From the NCBI RefSeq assembly GCF_001270745.1, contig NZ_KQ434758.1:124001-188000 (forward strand): DNA of 64,000 nt. Reading direction: 5' to 3'. The position numbers were made by a program, and so were the translations under genes. Within the stretch, counting starts at the first letter, position 1, and every line of letters begins with the position of its first letter. The notes beneath the pieces were generated by a model. The model worked only from the letters and a program-made list of their open reading frames with translations. It had not been told where the DNA came from and did not search any database. This DNA is from Jiangella muralis (lineage in GTDB: Bacteria; Actinomycetota; Actinomycetes; Jiangellales; Jiangellaceae). This document shows positions 19,876 through 23,375 of the stretch, one piece after another.

Positions 19876-21015
19876 ATGAAGATCACCGGGTGCGAAGTGC
19901 TCACCCTCCCCGACCACGGCGACAGCATGATGCTGGTCGCGGTCGACACCGACGAGGGCATCCACGGCCTGGGCGAGGTCGGCATCCGGACCCGGCAGCG
20001 CGCGGTCGCCGGGGGCATCGAGCACCTGGCCGAACTGATCGTCGGCGAGGACCCCACCCGCATCGAGCACCTGTGGCAGGTCATGTTCCGGCGCGGCTTC
20101 TTCCCGTCCGACCGGTTCCTCTCCGCCGCGATCGCCGCCATCGACGTCGCCCTCTGGGACATCCGCGGCAAGGCGCTGGGCGTACCGGTGTACCAGCTGC
20201 TCGGCGGTCAGGTCCGCGACGCGGTGCCGTGCTACGTCCACGTCGGCGACGAGTACCGCGAGCTGCCGGCGTTCCTGGACCGGTGCCGGCAACTGGTCGA
20301 GGACGGCTGGCGGCACCTGCGCTTCGCCGCCCCGCACGACGACGGCGTCCTGGACCAGCGGGCCAGCATGCGCGCGTCGATCGCGATGATGCACGCGGCC
20401 CGCGAAGCGCTGGGCGACGAGATCGAGTTGATCCTCGACGTGCACACCCGGCTGGACCCGCCGGAAGCGGTCACGCTGTGCCGCGAGATCGAGGCGGCCC
20501 GGCCCTACTTCGTCGAGGACCCGCTGCGGTCGGAGTCGCTGGACAGCTACCAGATGCTGCGGCTGCGCACCGGCGTGCCGCTGGCCACCGGCGAGGTGTA
20601 CGGGTCGAAGTGGGAGTTCCAGCGGCTGATCGAGCGCGACCTCATCGACTACGCGCGGGTCGACGTCGCGGTGGCGGCCGGGCTGACCGAGGCGAAGAAG
20701 ATCGCCGCGCTGGCCGAGACGCACTACGTCAAGCTGGCCACCCACAACCCGCTCGGCCCGGTCACGGCGGCCGCGTCGCTGCACCTCAACCTGGCCTGCC
20801 CGAACGTCGGGGTCCAGGAGCACCAGGTGGCGCCGGAGCCGGCGACGGCCGCGCTGTTCACCGCCCGGCCGACGGTCCGCCCGGGCTGGGTGGAACGCAG
20901 CGAGCTCCCCGGCCTCGGCGTCGACATCGACCGCGCGGCCGCCCGCAAGCTGCGGGCCACCCCCGCCGAACGCCCGCACCTGCGCACCCCGGACGGCGCG
21001 TACACGAACTGGTGA
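19876..21015 (+). CDS. Enolase-superfamily sugar-acid dehydratase (DgoD/ManD-like)
   Basis: A 379-aa member of the mandelate racemase group. Metal ligands are D188 (ILDVH), E214 (FVEDP) and E240 (ATGE). Candidate catalytic histidines are H190 and H290 (ATHNP). These five keep the spacing of E. coli galactonate dehydratase (D183, E209, E235, H185, H285) with an offset of five. The reaction would be dehydration of an aldonate to a 2-keto-3-deoxy acid in the cytoplasm. The true substrate is not known. It diverges from lacI and shares its control region, tying it to the oxidoreductase/epimerase pathway. Confidence 0.87.
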   Translation: MKITGCEVLTLPDHGDSMMLVAVDTDEGIHGLGEVGIRTRQRAVAGGIEHLAELIVGEDPTRIEHLWQVMFRRGFFPSDRFLSAAIAAIDVALWDIRGKALGVPVYQLLGGQVRDAVPCYVHVGDEYRELPAFLDRCRQLVEDGWRHLRFAAPHDDGVLDQRASMRASIAMMHAAREALGDEIELILDVHTRLDPPEAVTLCREIEAARPYFVEDPLRSESLDSYQMLRLRTGVPLATGEVYGSKWEFQRLIERDLIDYARVDVAVAAGLTEAKKIAALAETHYVKLATHNPLGPVTAAASLHLNLACPNVGVQEHQVAPEPATAALFTARPTVRPGWVERSELPGLGVDIDRAAARKLRATPAERPHLRTPDGAYTNW

Positions 21016-21042: not shown

Positions 21043-21702
21043 TCACAGGCTGTGCGCGGTGATGTTGCCGGTGATCGTGGTGGCCCGGATGGTCAGGCCG
21101 GTCGCGCCGTCGTTCTTCAGCGAGTTCTCGATCCGGCCGACGGTGGTGCCGGCGTCCAGCGAGGCGGAGACGCCGGGAGCGGCGCCGACGGACAGGTCAC
21201 CGACCTTGGTGGAGAGCACGACCGTGCCGTTCTCCGCCTCGGCGATGCGGATGTCGCCCTTCGCCGTGCTGATCTCGGCCGAGCCGGTGAGGTGGCCGAC
21301 CGACACGTCACCGGCCTGGACGGTGAGGCGGACGTTCGCAGCCTCGTCCAGCTTGAGGTCGCCGGCCGCGCCGTCGACGGTGACGTCGCCGAGGCGCCCG
21401 ACACCGCGGACGTCGACGGCGGCCGCCGTCGCCTCGACCCGGGAGCCCGCGGGCAGCTGGACCGTGACCTCGATCGAGCCGGAGGGGCCGAGGATCCGGT
21501 GCTTCGGCACGTCGACGCGCAGGACGCCGTCGGCGTAGCCGACCGTGGTCTGCTCCGCCAGCTTCACGTCGCGGTTCTTGGCGGGGTCCATCGGCCGGAC
21601 GTCGACGGTCGTGTCGGCGCGGTCGGCGGCGATGAGCTGGACGCGCCCCGCGGAGATGTCGAGGACGGCGGAGATCGGGGTGGGGGTGTCGAAGGTCTGC
21701 AT
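21043..21702 (-). CDS. DUF4097-type beta-repeat protein
   Basis: A 219-aa protein of short, regular beta-strand repeats with a G-D-x-x-x-G-x-x cadence (VDVRGVGRLGDVTVDGAAGDLKL, VTVQAGDVSVGHLTGSAEIST, KGDIRIAEA), the pattern of DUF4097/adhesin-like right-handed beta folds. It has no signal peptide or membrane helix, so it is probably cytoplasmic. The function is unknown. Its promoter (TTGCCA 21770-21765, TAGCGT 21747-21742) faces that of the divergent MarR-type regulator, which probably represses it. An AGGAG site lies nine bases before the ATG. Confidence 0.85.
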   Translation of the reverse strand: MQTFDTPTPISAVLDISAGRVQLIAADRADTTVDVRPMDPAKNRDVKLAEQTTVGYADGVLRVDVPKHRILGPSGSIEVTVQLPAGSRVEATAAAVDVRGVGRLGDVTVDGAAGDLKLDEAANVRLTVQAGDVSVGHLTGSAEISTAKGDIRIAEAENGTVVLSTKVGDLSVGAAPGVSASLDAGTTVGRIENSLKNDGATGLTIRATTITGNITAHSL

Positions 21703-21731
21703 GCTGCTCAGCTCCTGTGCTCGTTGTTTCT

Positions 21732-21763
21732 GATAGTGGAAACGCTACGTTGCGTTCACTATC
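21732..21763. promoter_or_regulatory. Inverted repeat across the DUF4097 promoter
   Basis: GATAGTG (21732-21738) and CACTATC (21757-21763) are exact inverse copies flanking the -10 of the DUF4097 promoter, and the match extends inward with AACGC/GCGTT after a one-base bulge. The element could be a second operator or a hairpin at the start of the transcript. Confidence 0.45.
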
Positions 21764-21766
21764 TTG

Positions 21767-21859
21767 GCAACATGTTCGTTGCACCTGAGCGGCGTCATTG
21801 CAGGTCGATGCCGGAATATCGTTGCAACGGTCGTGGAACTAACGCAACATGCGCGTTGC
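21767..21859. promoter_or_regulatory. Twin operators GCAAC-N6-GTTGC between divergent genes
   Basis: Two copies of the same inverted repeat, GCAAC-N6-GTTGC, occur at 21767-21782 and 21844-21859, both with ATG as the first three spacer bases. A shorter palindrome, CGTTGCAACG, lies between them (21820-21829). The left copy overlaps the -35 of the DUF4097 promoter. The right copy overlaps TTGCAA (21856-21861), the -35 of the regulator's promoter (TATGGT at 21880-21885). The geometry predicts joint repression of both genes. Confidence 0.65.
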
Positions 21860-21918
21860 AATGATTGACGAATGAACGCTATGGTTCGGGGGACGAGGAC
21901 GGCACGAAGGAGGCCACG

Positions 21919-22635
21919 ATGCCGGGAGGCAGGCTCACCCAGCGGGAACGCCAGCAGATCGCGCTGGGCCTGGCCGACGATCTCGCCTACGCCGAGATCG
22001 CCCGCCGGCTGGACCGGCCGACGTCGACCGTCACCCGCGAGGTCATGCGCAACGGTGGCCCGGCCGGCTACCGCGCCGAGGCCGCCCACCGGGCCACCGA
22101 GAAGCGCGCCCATCGCAGCAAGCCGGCCGCGTCGCCAGGGCCGCAGGCGCCGCCGCCGGTGCACGGGCGCGACCCGGCCGCCGTCCGCGCGTACGAGGAG
22201 ACGTTCACCGCGCTGCTCATGCGGCAGGGCCTGCCGCGCATCGCGTCGCAGGTGCTGACCTGCCTGTTCACCACCGACGCGGGTAGCCTCACCGCGCCCG
22301 ACCTGGCGCAGCGGCTCCAGGTGAGCCCGGCGTCGATCTCGAAGGCCATCACCTTCCTGGAGGGCCAGGGCCTCGTCGTCCGCAAGCGCGATGAGGGCCG
22401 GCGGGAGCGCTACGTCGCCGACAACGAGGTCTGGTTCCACTCGATGATCGCGGCCGCCCGCAGCAACGCCGAGCTGGCCGAGGCCGCGCGGCAGGGCGTC
22501 GGCGTGCTCGGTCGCGGCACCCCGGCCGCCGTCCGGCTCGAGAACGTCGCCCGGTTCATCGACTTCGTCGGCGAGAGCATCGCCCGCGCCGCTGAGCAGG
22601 CCCGCGAGGTGCTCGGCCCTAATCCAGCGCCGTGA
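21919..22635 (+). CDS. IS30-type HTH plus MarR/GbsR winged-helix regulator
   Basis: A 238-aa DNA-binding protein. Residues about 5-65 (LTQRERQQIALGLADDLAYAEIARRLDRPTSTVTREVMRNGG) resemble the N-terminal HTH of IS30-family transposases (HTH_38). Residues about 90-200 form a MarR/GbsR-like winged helix (LTAPDLAQRLQVSPASISKAITFLEGQGLVVRKRDEGRRERYV). No transposase catalytic domain is present. ATG 21919 has AAGGAGG seven bases upstream, so the frame's earlier ATG at 21865 is not used. The divergent DUF4097 gene and the twin operators suggest it represses that gene and itself. Its last 17 bases overlap the M50 gene tail to tail. Confidence 0.85.
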   Translation: MPGGRLTQRERQQIALGLADDLAYAEIARRLDRPTSTVTREVMRNGGPAGYRAEAAHRATEKRAHRSKPAASPGPQAPPPVHGRDPAAVRAYEETFTALLMRQGLPRIASQVLTCLFTTDAGSLTAPDLAQRLQVSPASISKAITFLEGQGLVVRKRDEGRRERYVADNEVWFHSMIAAARSNAELAEAARQGVGVLGRGTPAAVRLENVARFIDFVGESIARAAEQAREVLGPNPAP

Positions 22636-23362
22636 GCACCGAGGCGACGTTGAACCACGCGCACGCACCGATGACCAGCGCGAACGTGAACAGCCAGACG
22701 CCGCCGGGGACGACCGTGCGGCGGCCCATGAGGTACGCGTCGGACTGCTGGACGCCGCGGCCGCTGGTGTGCGCCCGGACGACGGCCCACAGGCCGCGCA
22801 CCGCGCCCACCGTCAGCAGCCAGGCGAACGCGTACACCACCACCGTGCACAGCCACGCCGACCCGTACCAGCCGACCAGCCCGAACCCGACGCCCGTCGT
22901 GAGCACGACGGCCACCGTCAGCCAGCTGCGCGACAGCAGGAACACCAGCGCGAGGCAGGCCACCAGGACGCCGAGCGCCAGCCGCGCCCACCCGTGCGTG
23001 GCCGACCACACCAGCGCCGACCCGACGACGGCCGGCGCCGGGTAGCCCCACCACATCGTCCAGAGCGTGCCGGGCGTGCTGTGCGACCAGAAGTTCGTCG
23101 CGCCGGAGAGGTCGCCGCGCACCGTCACGCCGCGCAGCCGGAACCCGGCCGTCAGCGCGGCGACGACGTGGCCCAGCTCGTGCACGATCGTGACCGGATA
23201 CCCGGCCAGCCGCCAGGCCGGCCCGTACACCGCCAGCACGACGCCGGCCAGCGCGAACCCCAGTACGACCGACGGCGGCATGGTCGCCAGCGTCTCGTCG
23301 ACCCGGACGTCCGCGAACCAGCCACGTACGCCGTCGGTCGTCCCGCCGCTCGCCTCCGCCAT
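22619..23362 (-). CDS. M50-type membrane metallopeptidase-like protein
   Basis: A 247-aa membrane protein with a zinc-protease HELGH motif (H61, E62, H65) in the segment YPVTIVHELGHVVAALTAG. About six or seven hydrophobic helices surround it. This matches the M50B-like actinobacterial membrane proteins related to site-2 proteases, although the third ligand (an N/D-P-G type motif) is not clear. The start could be the ATG at 23362 or the one at 23365. It follows the membrane PH-like protein by 10 bp and ends the second sugar operon by position; a role in that pathway is doubtful. Confidence 0.75.
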   Translation of the reverse strand: MAEASGGTTDGVRGWFADVRVDETLATMPPSVVLGFALAGVVLAVYGPAWRLAGYPVTIVHELGHVVAALTAGFRLRGVTVRGDLSGATNFWSHSTPGTLWTMWWGYPAPAVVGSALVWSATHGWARLALGVLVACLALVFLLSRSWLTVAVVLTTGVGFGLVGWYGSAWLCTVVVYAFAWLLTVGAVRGLWAVVRAHTSGRGVQQSDAYLMGRRTVVPGGVWLFTFALVIGACAWFNVASVLTALD

Positions 23363-23375
23363 CACCCGCCCGACC

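Follow-up and report, generated by a model that had tools for sequence, protein, structure and literature searches.

A conserved box array between a DUF4097 gene and the gene of an HTH_38–MarR-type regulator in Jiangella muralis: a probable operator related to IS30-family repeat ends

The window analysed here is a 64,000-nt stretch of DNA from Jiangella muralis (assembly GCF_001270745.1, contig NZ_KQ434758.1, positions 124,001–188,000 of the forward strand), in which all coordinates below are counted. On the minus strand, positions 21043–21702 encode a DUF4097 (Toastrack) protein of 219 residues (Pfam PF13349, 36.3 bits; cutoff, 22.9), and on the plus strand, positions 21919–22635 encode a regulator of 238 residues comprising an HTH_38 head, a probable flexible linker, and a GbsR/MarR-like winged helix with long helices. 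The two genes form a divergent pair with a control region of about 150 bases between them, the short boxes of which are nearly constant in spacing in many soil bacteria. The immediate neighbours of the DUF4097 gene encode the regulator, an enolase-superfamily enzyme, and an M50B peptidase. The gene of the M50B-like membrane peptidase (22619–23365, minus strand) is in tail-to-tail orientation to the regulator gene and overlaps its 3′ end.

A strict consensus promoter scan of 21600–22000 finds no promoter, so both promoters are assigned from their position and from spacing kept in relatives. The putative DUF4097 promoter comprises a –35 element TTGCCA (21770–21765, minus) and a –10 element TAGCGT (21747–21742, minus) with a 17-bp spacer. 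The putative regulator promoter comprises TTGCAA (21856–21861, plus) and TATGGT (21880–21885, plus) with an 18-bp spacer. Spacers of 17 bp for DUF4097 and 17–18 bp for the regulator recur in relatives.

In profile searches, the regulator contains an HTH_38 domain at residues 5–45 (55.4 bits) and a MarR-type winged helix at residues 104–160 (MarR_2, 40.5 bits; cutoff, 27). The predicted structure has a mean pLDDT of 83 and a pTM of 0.57, and residues 57–78 fall under 50, which suggests a flexible linker. No sequence relative is found in the PDB at an E value of 0.01. Similar to the GbsR family (GbsR, OpuAR, and Mj223), the C-terminal half of the model resembles 4nb5 (E = 1.9e-7, TMt 0.83) and Mj223 (1ku9; E = 9.7e-6, TMt 0.71), with about 145 of the 238 residues aligned. 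A study of this family describes Mj223 as the template used for GbsR models, GbsR-like regulators as having one DNA-reading head and a dimerization domain, and GbsR-type repressors as having divergent target genes in some cases (PMC6207618). Unlike those proteins, the regulator carries an additional N-terminal HTH_38 head, which is extra to the MarR/GbsR-like half and is conserved in 34 aligned sequences, and it adjoins a long array rather than the short site of the GbsR family. Among 72,556 plasmid records, 84 contain a match to the regulator, which in 75 cases covers at least 80% of its length; 74 of the 84 are from Streptomyces, several from strains of one species. No phage record has a match. 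In open-licence PubMed Central papers, a scope outside which most subscription journals lie, no description of the regulator, the array, or the regulon was found.

The DUF4097 protein is modeled with a mean pLDDT of 92 as a β-helix, for which the best fold matches are 4qrk and 3pet (TM 0.45–0.58), and no credible sequence relative is found in the PDB. An assignment as LiaG of the Lia/PSP envelope-stress system receives 16.8 bits against a cutoff of 285, and there is no PSP partner among the immediate neighbours.

The original prediction for this locus held that a GCAAC-N6-GTTGC element overlaps the –35 box of each gene, that a GATAGTG/CACTATC repeat brackets the DUF4097 –10 element, and that the mirror-image operators place both genes under joint control. 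The first element is present without mismatch at 21767–21782 and 21844–21859, overlapping TTGCCA (minus) and TTGCAA (plus), respectively. These two are the only occurrences in the window, in which 100 shuffles average 0.02 occurrences and never contain two; the whole genome has 10 in 7.27 Mb, compared with 1 for a reversed-pattern control. Elsewhere in the genome, on contig C5 (L003:1501–1550), two copies with starts 34 bp apart precede an open reading frame that is SRPBCC-like by eye, at a locus without a match to the regulator or DUF4097; this pair was set aside as probably an unrelated operator.

Relatives for comparison came from three sources: 22 family genomes, 396 phylum genomes, and, from named genomes, 467 candidate loci of which the best 80 were used. 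From 111 loci, 89 with complete copies of both genes were kept, 21 having been dropped because the regulator or DUF4097 match was missing or partial and L008 because it is a second copy of the window; omission of a duplicate (L032) leaves 88 distinct intergenic regions, including that of the window. L065 and L088 are misanchored in this placement, which is superseded for both by the placement in the 115 arrays discussed below.

The half-sites of the two GCAAC-N6-GTTGC elements (site 1 at 21767–21782, site 2 at 21844–21859) are conserved in relatives with the same gene pair, the comparison on which the original prediction had said it would stand or fall. Of 82 spacing-matched regions, 58 retain both CAAC and GTTG at site 1, which is imperfect in the other 24, and exact GCAAC/GTTGC occurs in 44 of the 82. 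At site 2, the half-sites are kept, but the N6 gap is exact in the window species only. Comparison thus gives good support to joint control of the two genes by the regulator next to them, whereas the identical mirror pair is a peculiarity of the window species. The GATAGTG/CACTATC repeat is exact in the window (21732–21738 and 21757–21763) but is not conserved in relatives: of the 88 intergenic regions, only that of the window itself has it without mismatch, and one more matches at 6 of 7 positions. Its mean arm match is 2.43 of 7, compared with 2.27 for shuffled partners (reached by 42 of 1000 shuffles), and a match with up to two mismatches in the window is reached by 3 of 100 shuffles. This repeat is therefore unconfirmed as a functional element and is rejected as an operator. 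The two GCAAC-N6-GTTGC elements are real and beyond chance, yet by comparison of the intergenic regions they are fragments of a larger operator, which has boxes also between the two promoters and copies also before other genes, away from the regulator.

The larger operator includes several words that the original prediction did not name. At the inferred DUF4097 –10/start region lies GTTTC-N8-GAAAC (21726–21743), of which GTTTC is the conserved arm: TTTC is present in 88 of 88 regions and the leading G in 91%, and both arms are perfect in 45 of 88. Box E1, AAACGCTACGTTGCGTT (21740–21756, plus), contains the minus-strand sequence GAACGCAACG and the putative DUF4097 –10 element and has 0–1 mismatch to the consensus in 87 of 88 regions; its AACGC-N6-GCGTT (21741–21756) is perfect in 29 of 88, and the left arm varies at the third base only. 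E2 (21766–21782) corresponds to site 1 and lies 26 bp from E1 in 84 of 88. The best columns of E3, TCATTGCAGGT (21795–21805, plus; with TGCAGG at 21799–21804), are T, G, C, A, G, and T with 1.6, 1.3, 1.9, 1.8, 1.9, and 1.7 bits, respectively, in the 82 spacing-matched regions. E4, ATCGTTGCAACGG (21818–21830, plus; with CGTTGCAACG at 21820–21829), is located between the two promoters, 52 bp from E2 in 84 of 88, and resembles IS30-family repeat ends. The left half of site 2 is E5, TAACGCAAC (21840–21848, plus; 0–1 mismatches in 78 of 88), and the right half is E6, CGTTGCAATG (21854–21863, plus; 0–1 mismatches in 83 of 88), which contains the putative regulator –35 element TTGCAA. E7, TGAACGC (GAACGC at 21874–21879), is followed directly by the regulator –10 element (together 21873–21885, plus); as placed, its distance from E6 is 19 or 18 bp in every one of the 88 regions, corresponding to a promoter spacer of 18 or 17 bp.

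The distances of 26 bp between E1 and E2 and 52 bp between E2 and E4 occur together in 82 of 88 regions. Across 114 columns of these spacing-matched regions, whose mean pairwise identity is 63%, 41 columns have at least 1.5 bits and 38 have less than 0.5. The flanking distances vary, from 34 to 108 bp between E1 and the DUF4097 start (24 values) and from 4 to 71 bp between E7 and the regulator start (25 values). Exact E1 is a single copy in the J. muralis genome, and the E4 pattern is likewise unique at 0 mismatches. The observed arm match of GTTTC/GAAAC and AACGC/GCGTT is reached by 777 and 983 of 1000 shuffles, respectively; since these arms do not covary, they are best described as conserved words and not as proven dyads. 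Site 1 fares slightly better, with 18 of 1000 shuffles reaching the observed match.

Where the spacing does change, it mostly does so by about 10 bp. This comparison covers 115 distinct arrays in which E5 and E6 are well defined, omitting 9 duplicates, L034, L035, L045, and L057 (no match to the E1 pattern), L202, and L056, L064, and L076 (weak E6). The E1–E4 distance is 82 bp in 103 arrays and 71–73 bp in nine; 79, 81, and 83 bp occur once each and 74–78 bp never. The E5–E6 gap is 14–17 bp in 101 arrays, 5–7 bp in 13, and 3 bp in one, with none of 8–13 bp; the 3-bp gap, outside both usual size classes, is that of Kutzneria sp. 744 (L110). Nine arrays before P450-like genes are about 10 bp shorter at both E1–E4 and E5–E6. 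The window and L011, L012, and L015 of the same genus are short at E5–E6 only, and in L013 and L014 of that genus this gap is long. Such steps, close to one helical turn, are compatible with a protein complex that is sensitive to helical face. They stem from few lineages (the P450-type arrays and some Jiangella) and from a small number of independent events, and L110 is an exception to them.

Occurrence of the array follows that of the regulator gene. Among the 22 family genomes, E1 with at most one mismatch is present in 8, the same 8 that have the regulator (that of J. muralis included). In the phylum sample, exact E1 is found in 10 of 396 genomes, all of them among the 14 with the regulator (again including J. 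muralis), and the reversed pattern is found in none. Of 343 Streptomyces genomes, 204 carry exact E1 and 241 the regulator (E values up to 1e-40); both are present in 199, E1 only in 5, the regulator only in 42, and neither in 97 (Fisher p = 9e-45, ancestry ignored), where the 42 of 241 regulator-bearing genomes without E1 are counted for exact E1 and not for one-mismatch forms.

The boxes also change with the regulator. A sister group of divergent regulators, approximately 52–55% identical to that of the window (L031, L139, L140, and L142), stands before other genes, and the proteins encoded divergently to those of L031, L139, and L140, the three that were scanned, match no Pfam or NCBIfam family. 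In the arrays at these four loci, CAAC or CAAT again lies 26 bp from E1, and the other distances are almost unchanged (79–81, 20, 23–24, and 18 bp). In these arrays, GTTGC and GCAAC are replaced by TTTGC (once CTTGC) and GCAAA, jointly in E4, E5, and E6. Most of the array is retained in L017, which adjoins an ABC ATPase gene, and in L024 and L028. L027 has no recognisable boxes; in L141, E1 and E2 are kept and the remaining boxes were not found as searched.

Copies of the array also stand away from the regulator. Some Streptomyces genomes have several exact E1 copies, for example four in G373, five in G713, and six in G614. The phylum and Streptomyces searches, a non-random sample, yield 43 E1 loci besides that of the window, of which 42 were classified and one (L202) was omitted because it is at a contig end. 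The leftward gene at the 42 loci matches DUF4097 in 28, a P450-like protein in nine (L169, L178, L181, L189, L191, L197, L199, L200, and L204) and a GtrA-like protein in three (L165, L176, and L190), these twelve all in Streptomyces genomes, an ABC ATPase in one, and none of these in one. A regulator match starts 100–400 bp rightward in 23 loci and is absent beside 19, including 9 of the 12 P450-like and GtrA-like arrays. Pfam assigns one P450 with 117.7 bits and one GtrA-like protein with 26.3 bits, against a cutoff of 26.1.

The DUF4097 arrays provide a natural deletion comparison, with 10 lacking the regulator gene and 18 retaining it. Mismatches to the regulator –10 element average 2.9 without the regulator gene versus 1.06 with it (Mann–Whitney p = 0.002). 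For the other elements there is no clear difference between the two groups: 0.1 versus 0.44 for E4 (p = 0.11), 0.2 versus 0 for E5 (p = 0.06), 0.4 versus 0.33 for E6 (p = 0.75), and 0.1 versus 0 for GAACGC (p = 0.21). Persistence of E4–E6 while the regulator –10 element decays indicates that these boxes are kept for the leftward gene and not only for the promoter of the regulator itself.

Both the head of the regulator and the boxes are reminiscent of the IS30 family of transposable elements. Residues 6–70 of the regulator are identical to residues 59–123 of the Escherichia coli K-12 IS30 transposase at 26 of 65 positions (40%). At an E value of 0.001, 1,387 plasmid records match the HTH_38 head, 1,311 of them at under 60% identity; many of the 60 listed records bear an annotation as IS30-family transposase. 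An N-terminal HTH_38-type domain is thus common to the IS30 transposases and the regulator. Unlike the transposases, the regulator is fused to a MarR/GbsR-like half and has no catalytic transposase domain among the Pfam and NCBIfam families listed, NF033563 reaching only 16 bits against a cutoff of 80. Because its head resembles the DNA-binding part of the IS30 transposase, the regulator may represent a transposase part serving as a gene switch.

The ends of E. coli IS30 are TCAACGCAACA and TCAATGCAACA, and box E5 is TAACGCAAC or TAATGCAAC; the ends, which terminate in GGTCAACGCAACA and TGTCAATGCAACA, contain AACGCAAC and the variant AATGCAAC, both of which are E5 forms. The closest end is that of ISLxc3, an IS30-family element of Leifsonia whose repeats are described as ending in GGTCGTTGCAACA (PMC2516522); ISLxc3 ends TCGTTGCAACA where box E4 ends TCGTTGCAACG. 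This element came from a literature search for the box sequence TCGTTGCAA and was excluded from a matrix built of 12 ends of the eight IS30-type elements described next. These eight were picked by their transposase and not by their ends. GCAACA is found at the inner edge of both repeats in five of them (L210, L213, L215, L216, and L217) and of one repeat in L212; the other two are without such a repeat, L214 having none above shuffles and L218 an unrelated one. With the 12-end matrix, 13-mers of the array rank 2, 3, 4, 13, 15, and 19 of 127,976 in the window, whereas with reversed ends they rank no better than 59. In 32 of 89 intergenic regions, no more than 1 of 100 shuffles attains the best score, compared with 4 regions for reversed ends; when ISLxc3 is added, the numbers are 42 and 2. 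The boxes of the array resemble IS30-family terminal repeats at their inner end. Against this likeness, the plain pattern TCNNYGCAACR has two occurrences in the window, both of them inside the array, but shuffles average 1.9; the likeness resides mainly in GCAAC, and the boxes beside divergent regulators are of the GCAAA type. Unlike terminal repeats, the boxes form a spaced array between two promoters and not two ends of an element.

The genes behind DUF4097 bear on a possible function. A DrrA-like ATPase gene lies 16–165 bp behind DUF4097 in 29 of 71 named loci (the 80 named loci minus 6 without a DUF4097 match and 3 with fewer than 300 bases behind DUF4097), and one of these ATPases receives 310.1 bits for TIGR01188, just below the cutoff of 312.45. 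Unlike these relatives, which in this regard are similar to DrrAB-type exporter operons, the window (where a convergent gene ends at 21015 and DUF4097 has no ABC genes behind it) and six family relatives (L131–L136) have no DrrA-like ATPase or permease gene behind DUF4097. On large linear Streptomyces plasmids, the gene pair is found six times (L128–L130, L138, L143, and L144), with annotated ABC transporter genes behind DUF4097 in four. In the lunaemycin cluster, the ABC genes lun25–26 (DrrA family) adjoin the DUF4097 gene lun27 (PMC9866976), and the likeness to the loci studied here is one of gene adjacency. Toastrack domains have been proposed to help in assembling sub-membrane signalling complexes (PMC11237479). 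In Listeria, the PadR-type regulator LltR represses the DUF4097 gene lmo0601, and the related LftR represses an antibiotic efflux pump, lieAB (PMC6624303). The regulator analysed here would similarly be a repressor controlling a DUF4097 gene; unlike it, LltR and LftR belong to another regulator family, the Listeria DUF4097 protein is a hypothetical exoprotein whose gene lies downstream of that for the repressor, and the passages concerned with them describe no comparable array (PMC6624303). The DrrA-like exporter genes after DUF4097 in 29 of 71 loci hint at a drug-responsive switch, and a drug or metabolite signal for the regulator is plausible.

Taken from these comparisons, 21726–21885 is probably one operator array of the adjacent regulator, whose transposase-type head would read the repeat-end-like boxes in a complex that silences both promoters. 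The regulator is expected to be a dimer, probably formed via its C-terminal helices, with two DNA-reading heads per subunit: the IS30-type N-terminal head on a flexible linker and the GbsR/MarR-type winged helix. The transposase-type head would read the GCAAC boxes, and several dimers would assemble on E1–E7, with the helical phase preserved by the spacing. Such a complex would cover the –35 and –10 elements of both divergent promoters, so that both genes would be held down until a ligand, presumably a small molecule and perhaps a drug, loosens it. In some relatives, the same complex would form on the array copies before other genes. Its action would be that of a MarR/GbsR autorepressor combined with the way in which a transposase represses itself, on an operator of unusual length and rigidity.

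Several other explanations were weighed against this repressing complex. The same array and regulator might mainly activate one promoter, for example by bringing E4–E6 to the DUF4097 promoter, and the retention of E4–E6 where only the leftward gene remains, about 80–130 bp from E1, is consistent with this; the explanation is nevertheless unlikely, because E1, GTTTC, and E7 overlap the inferred –10/start regions, and such overlap is typical of repressor sites. Two ordinary independent operators, with one MarR-type dimer at each –35 box and unimportant boxes between, would account for two N6 palindromes that are exact in the window and rare. They are a distinctly unlikely arrangement, however, given that the N6 form of site 2 is limited to the window species, that E3 and E4, although part of neither promoter, are conserved at a fixed distance, and that arrays without the regulator gene retain E4–E6.

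The 19 of 42 array loci without an adjoining regulator gene could also mean that another, wider regulator reads the array and that the neighbouring HTH_38–MarR protein is merely one of its targets. This is very unlikely: E1 is nearly confined to genomes with the regulator (199 of 204 in Streptomyces and 10 of 10 in the phylum sample for exact E1, and 8 of 8 in the family with at most one mismatch), sequence-diverged relatives of the regulator have jointly changed boxes, and the boxes fit an IS30-type head. It is scarcely credible that the conserved stretch acts as RNA, either a leader or a small RNA, or as a small coding sequence. With 40 of the 82 aligned rows as input, the RNAalifold energies are –8.3 and –5.6 kcal/mol for the two strands, below all 60 column shuffles in each case, but inverted repeats in DNA give the same signal and shuffling destroys them, so this result is uninformative. 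Against these roles, E2–E5 lie upstream of both inferred starts, no Rfam family is matched at its threshold, and the changes in spacing, at about 10 bp, do not come in multiples of three.

Beyond the array as an operator, a broader proposal is offered tentatively, with slightly less than even confidence: a fusion of the DNA-binding domain of an IS30 transposase with a GbsR-type winged helix may form a phased complex of several subunits on an array that is portable and about 150 bp long, head and site having been co-opted together from a transposable element, and the array may have spread with plasmids and come to stand before exporter-linked DUF4097, P450, and GtrA-like genes, giving a small, probably drug-related actinomycete regulon. 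That head and binding site were taken over together is suggested by the boxes still looking like IS30-family ends, and horizontal spread is read from two things only, the patchy occurrence of the array and its plasmids.

Most operators drift more freely than this array, whose box order and spacing persist for more than 100 bp in many genera, both next to the regulator and at a distance from it, and change mainly by about one helical turn. If the proposal is correct, a transposase domain and its target sequence have together been turned into a gene switch. The array also defines a testable regulon of DUF4097 proteins, DrrAB-type exporters, P450s, and GtrA-like proteins in antibiotic-producing bacteria, and it may provide a route to the role, and the releasing signal, of DUF4097 proteins without an evident membrane anchor.
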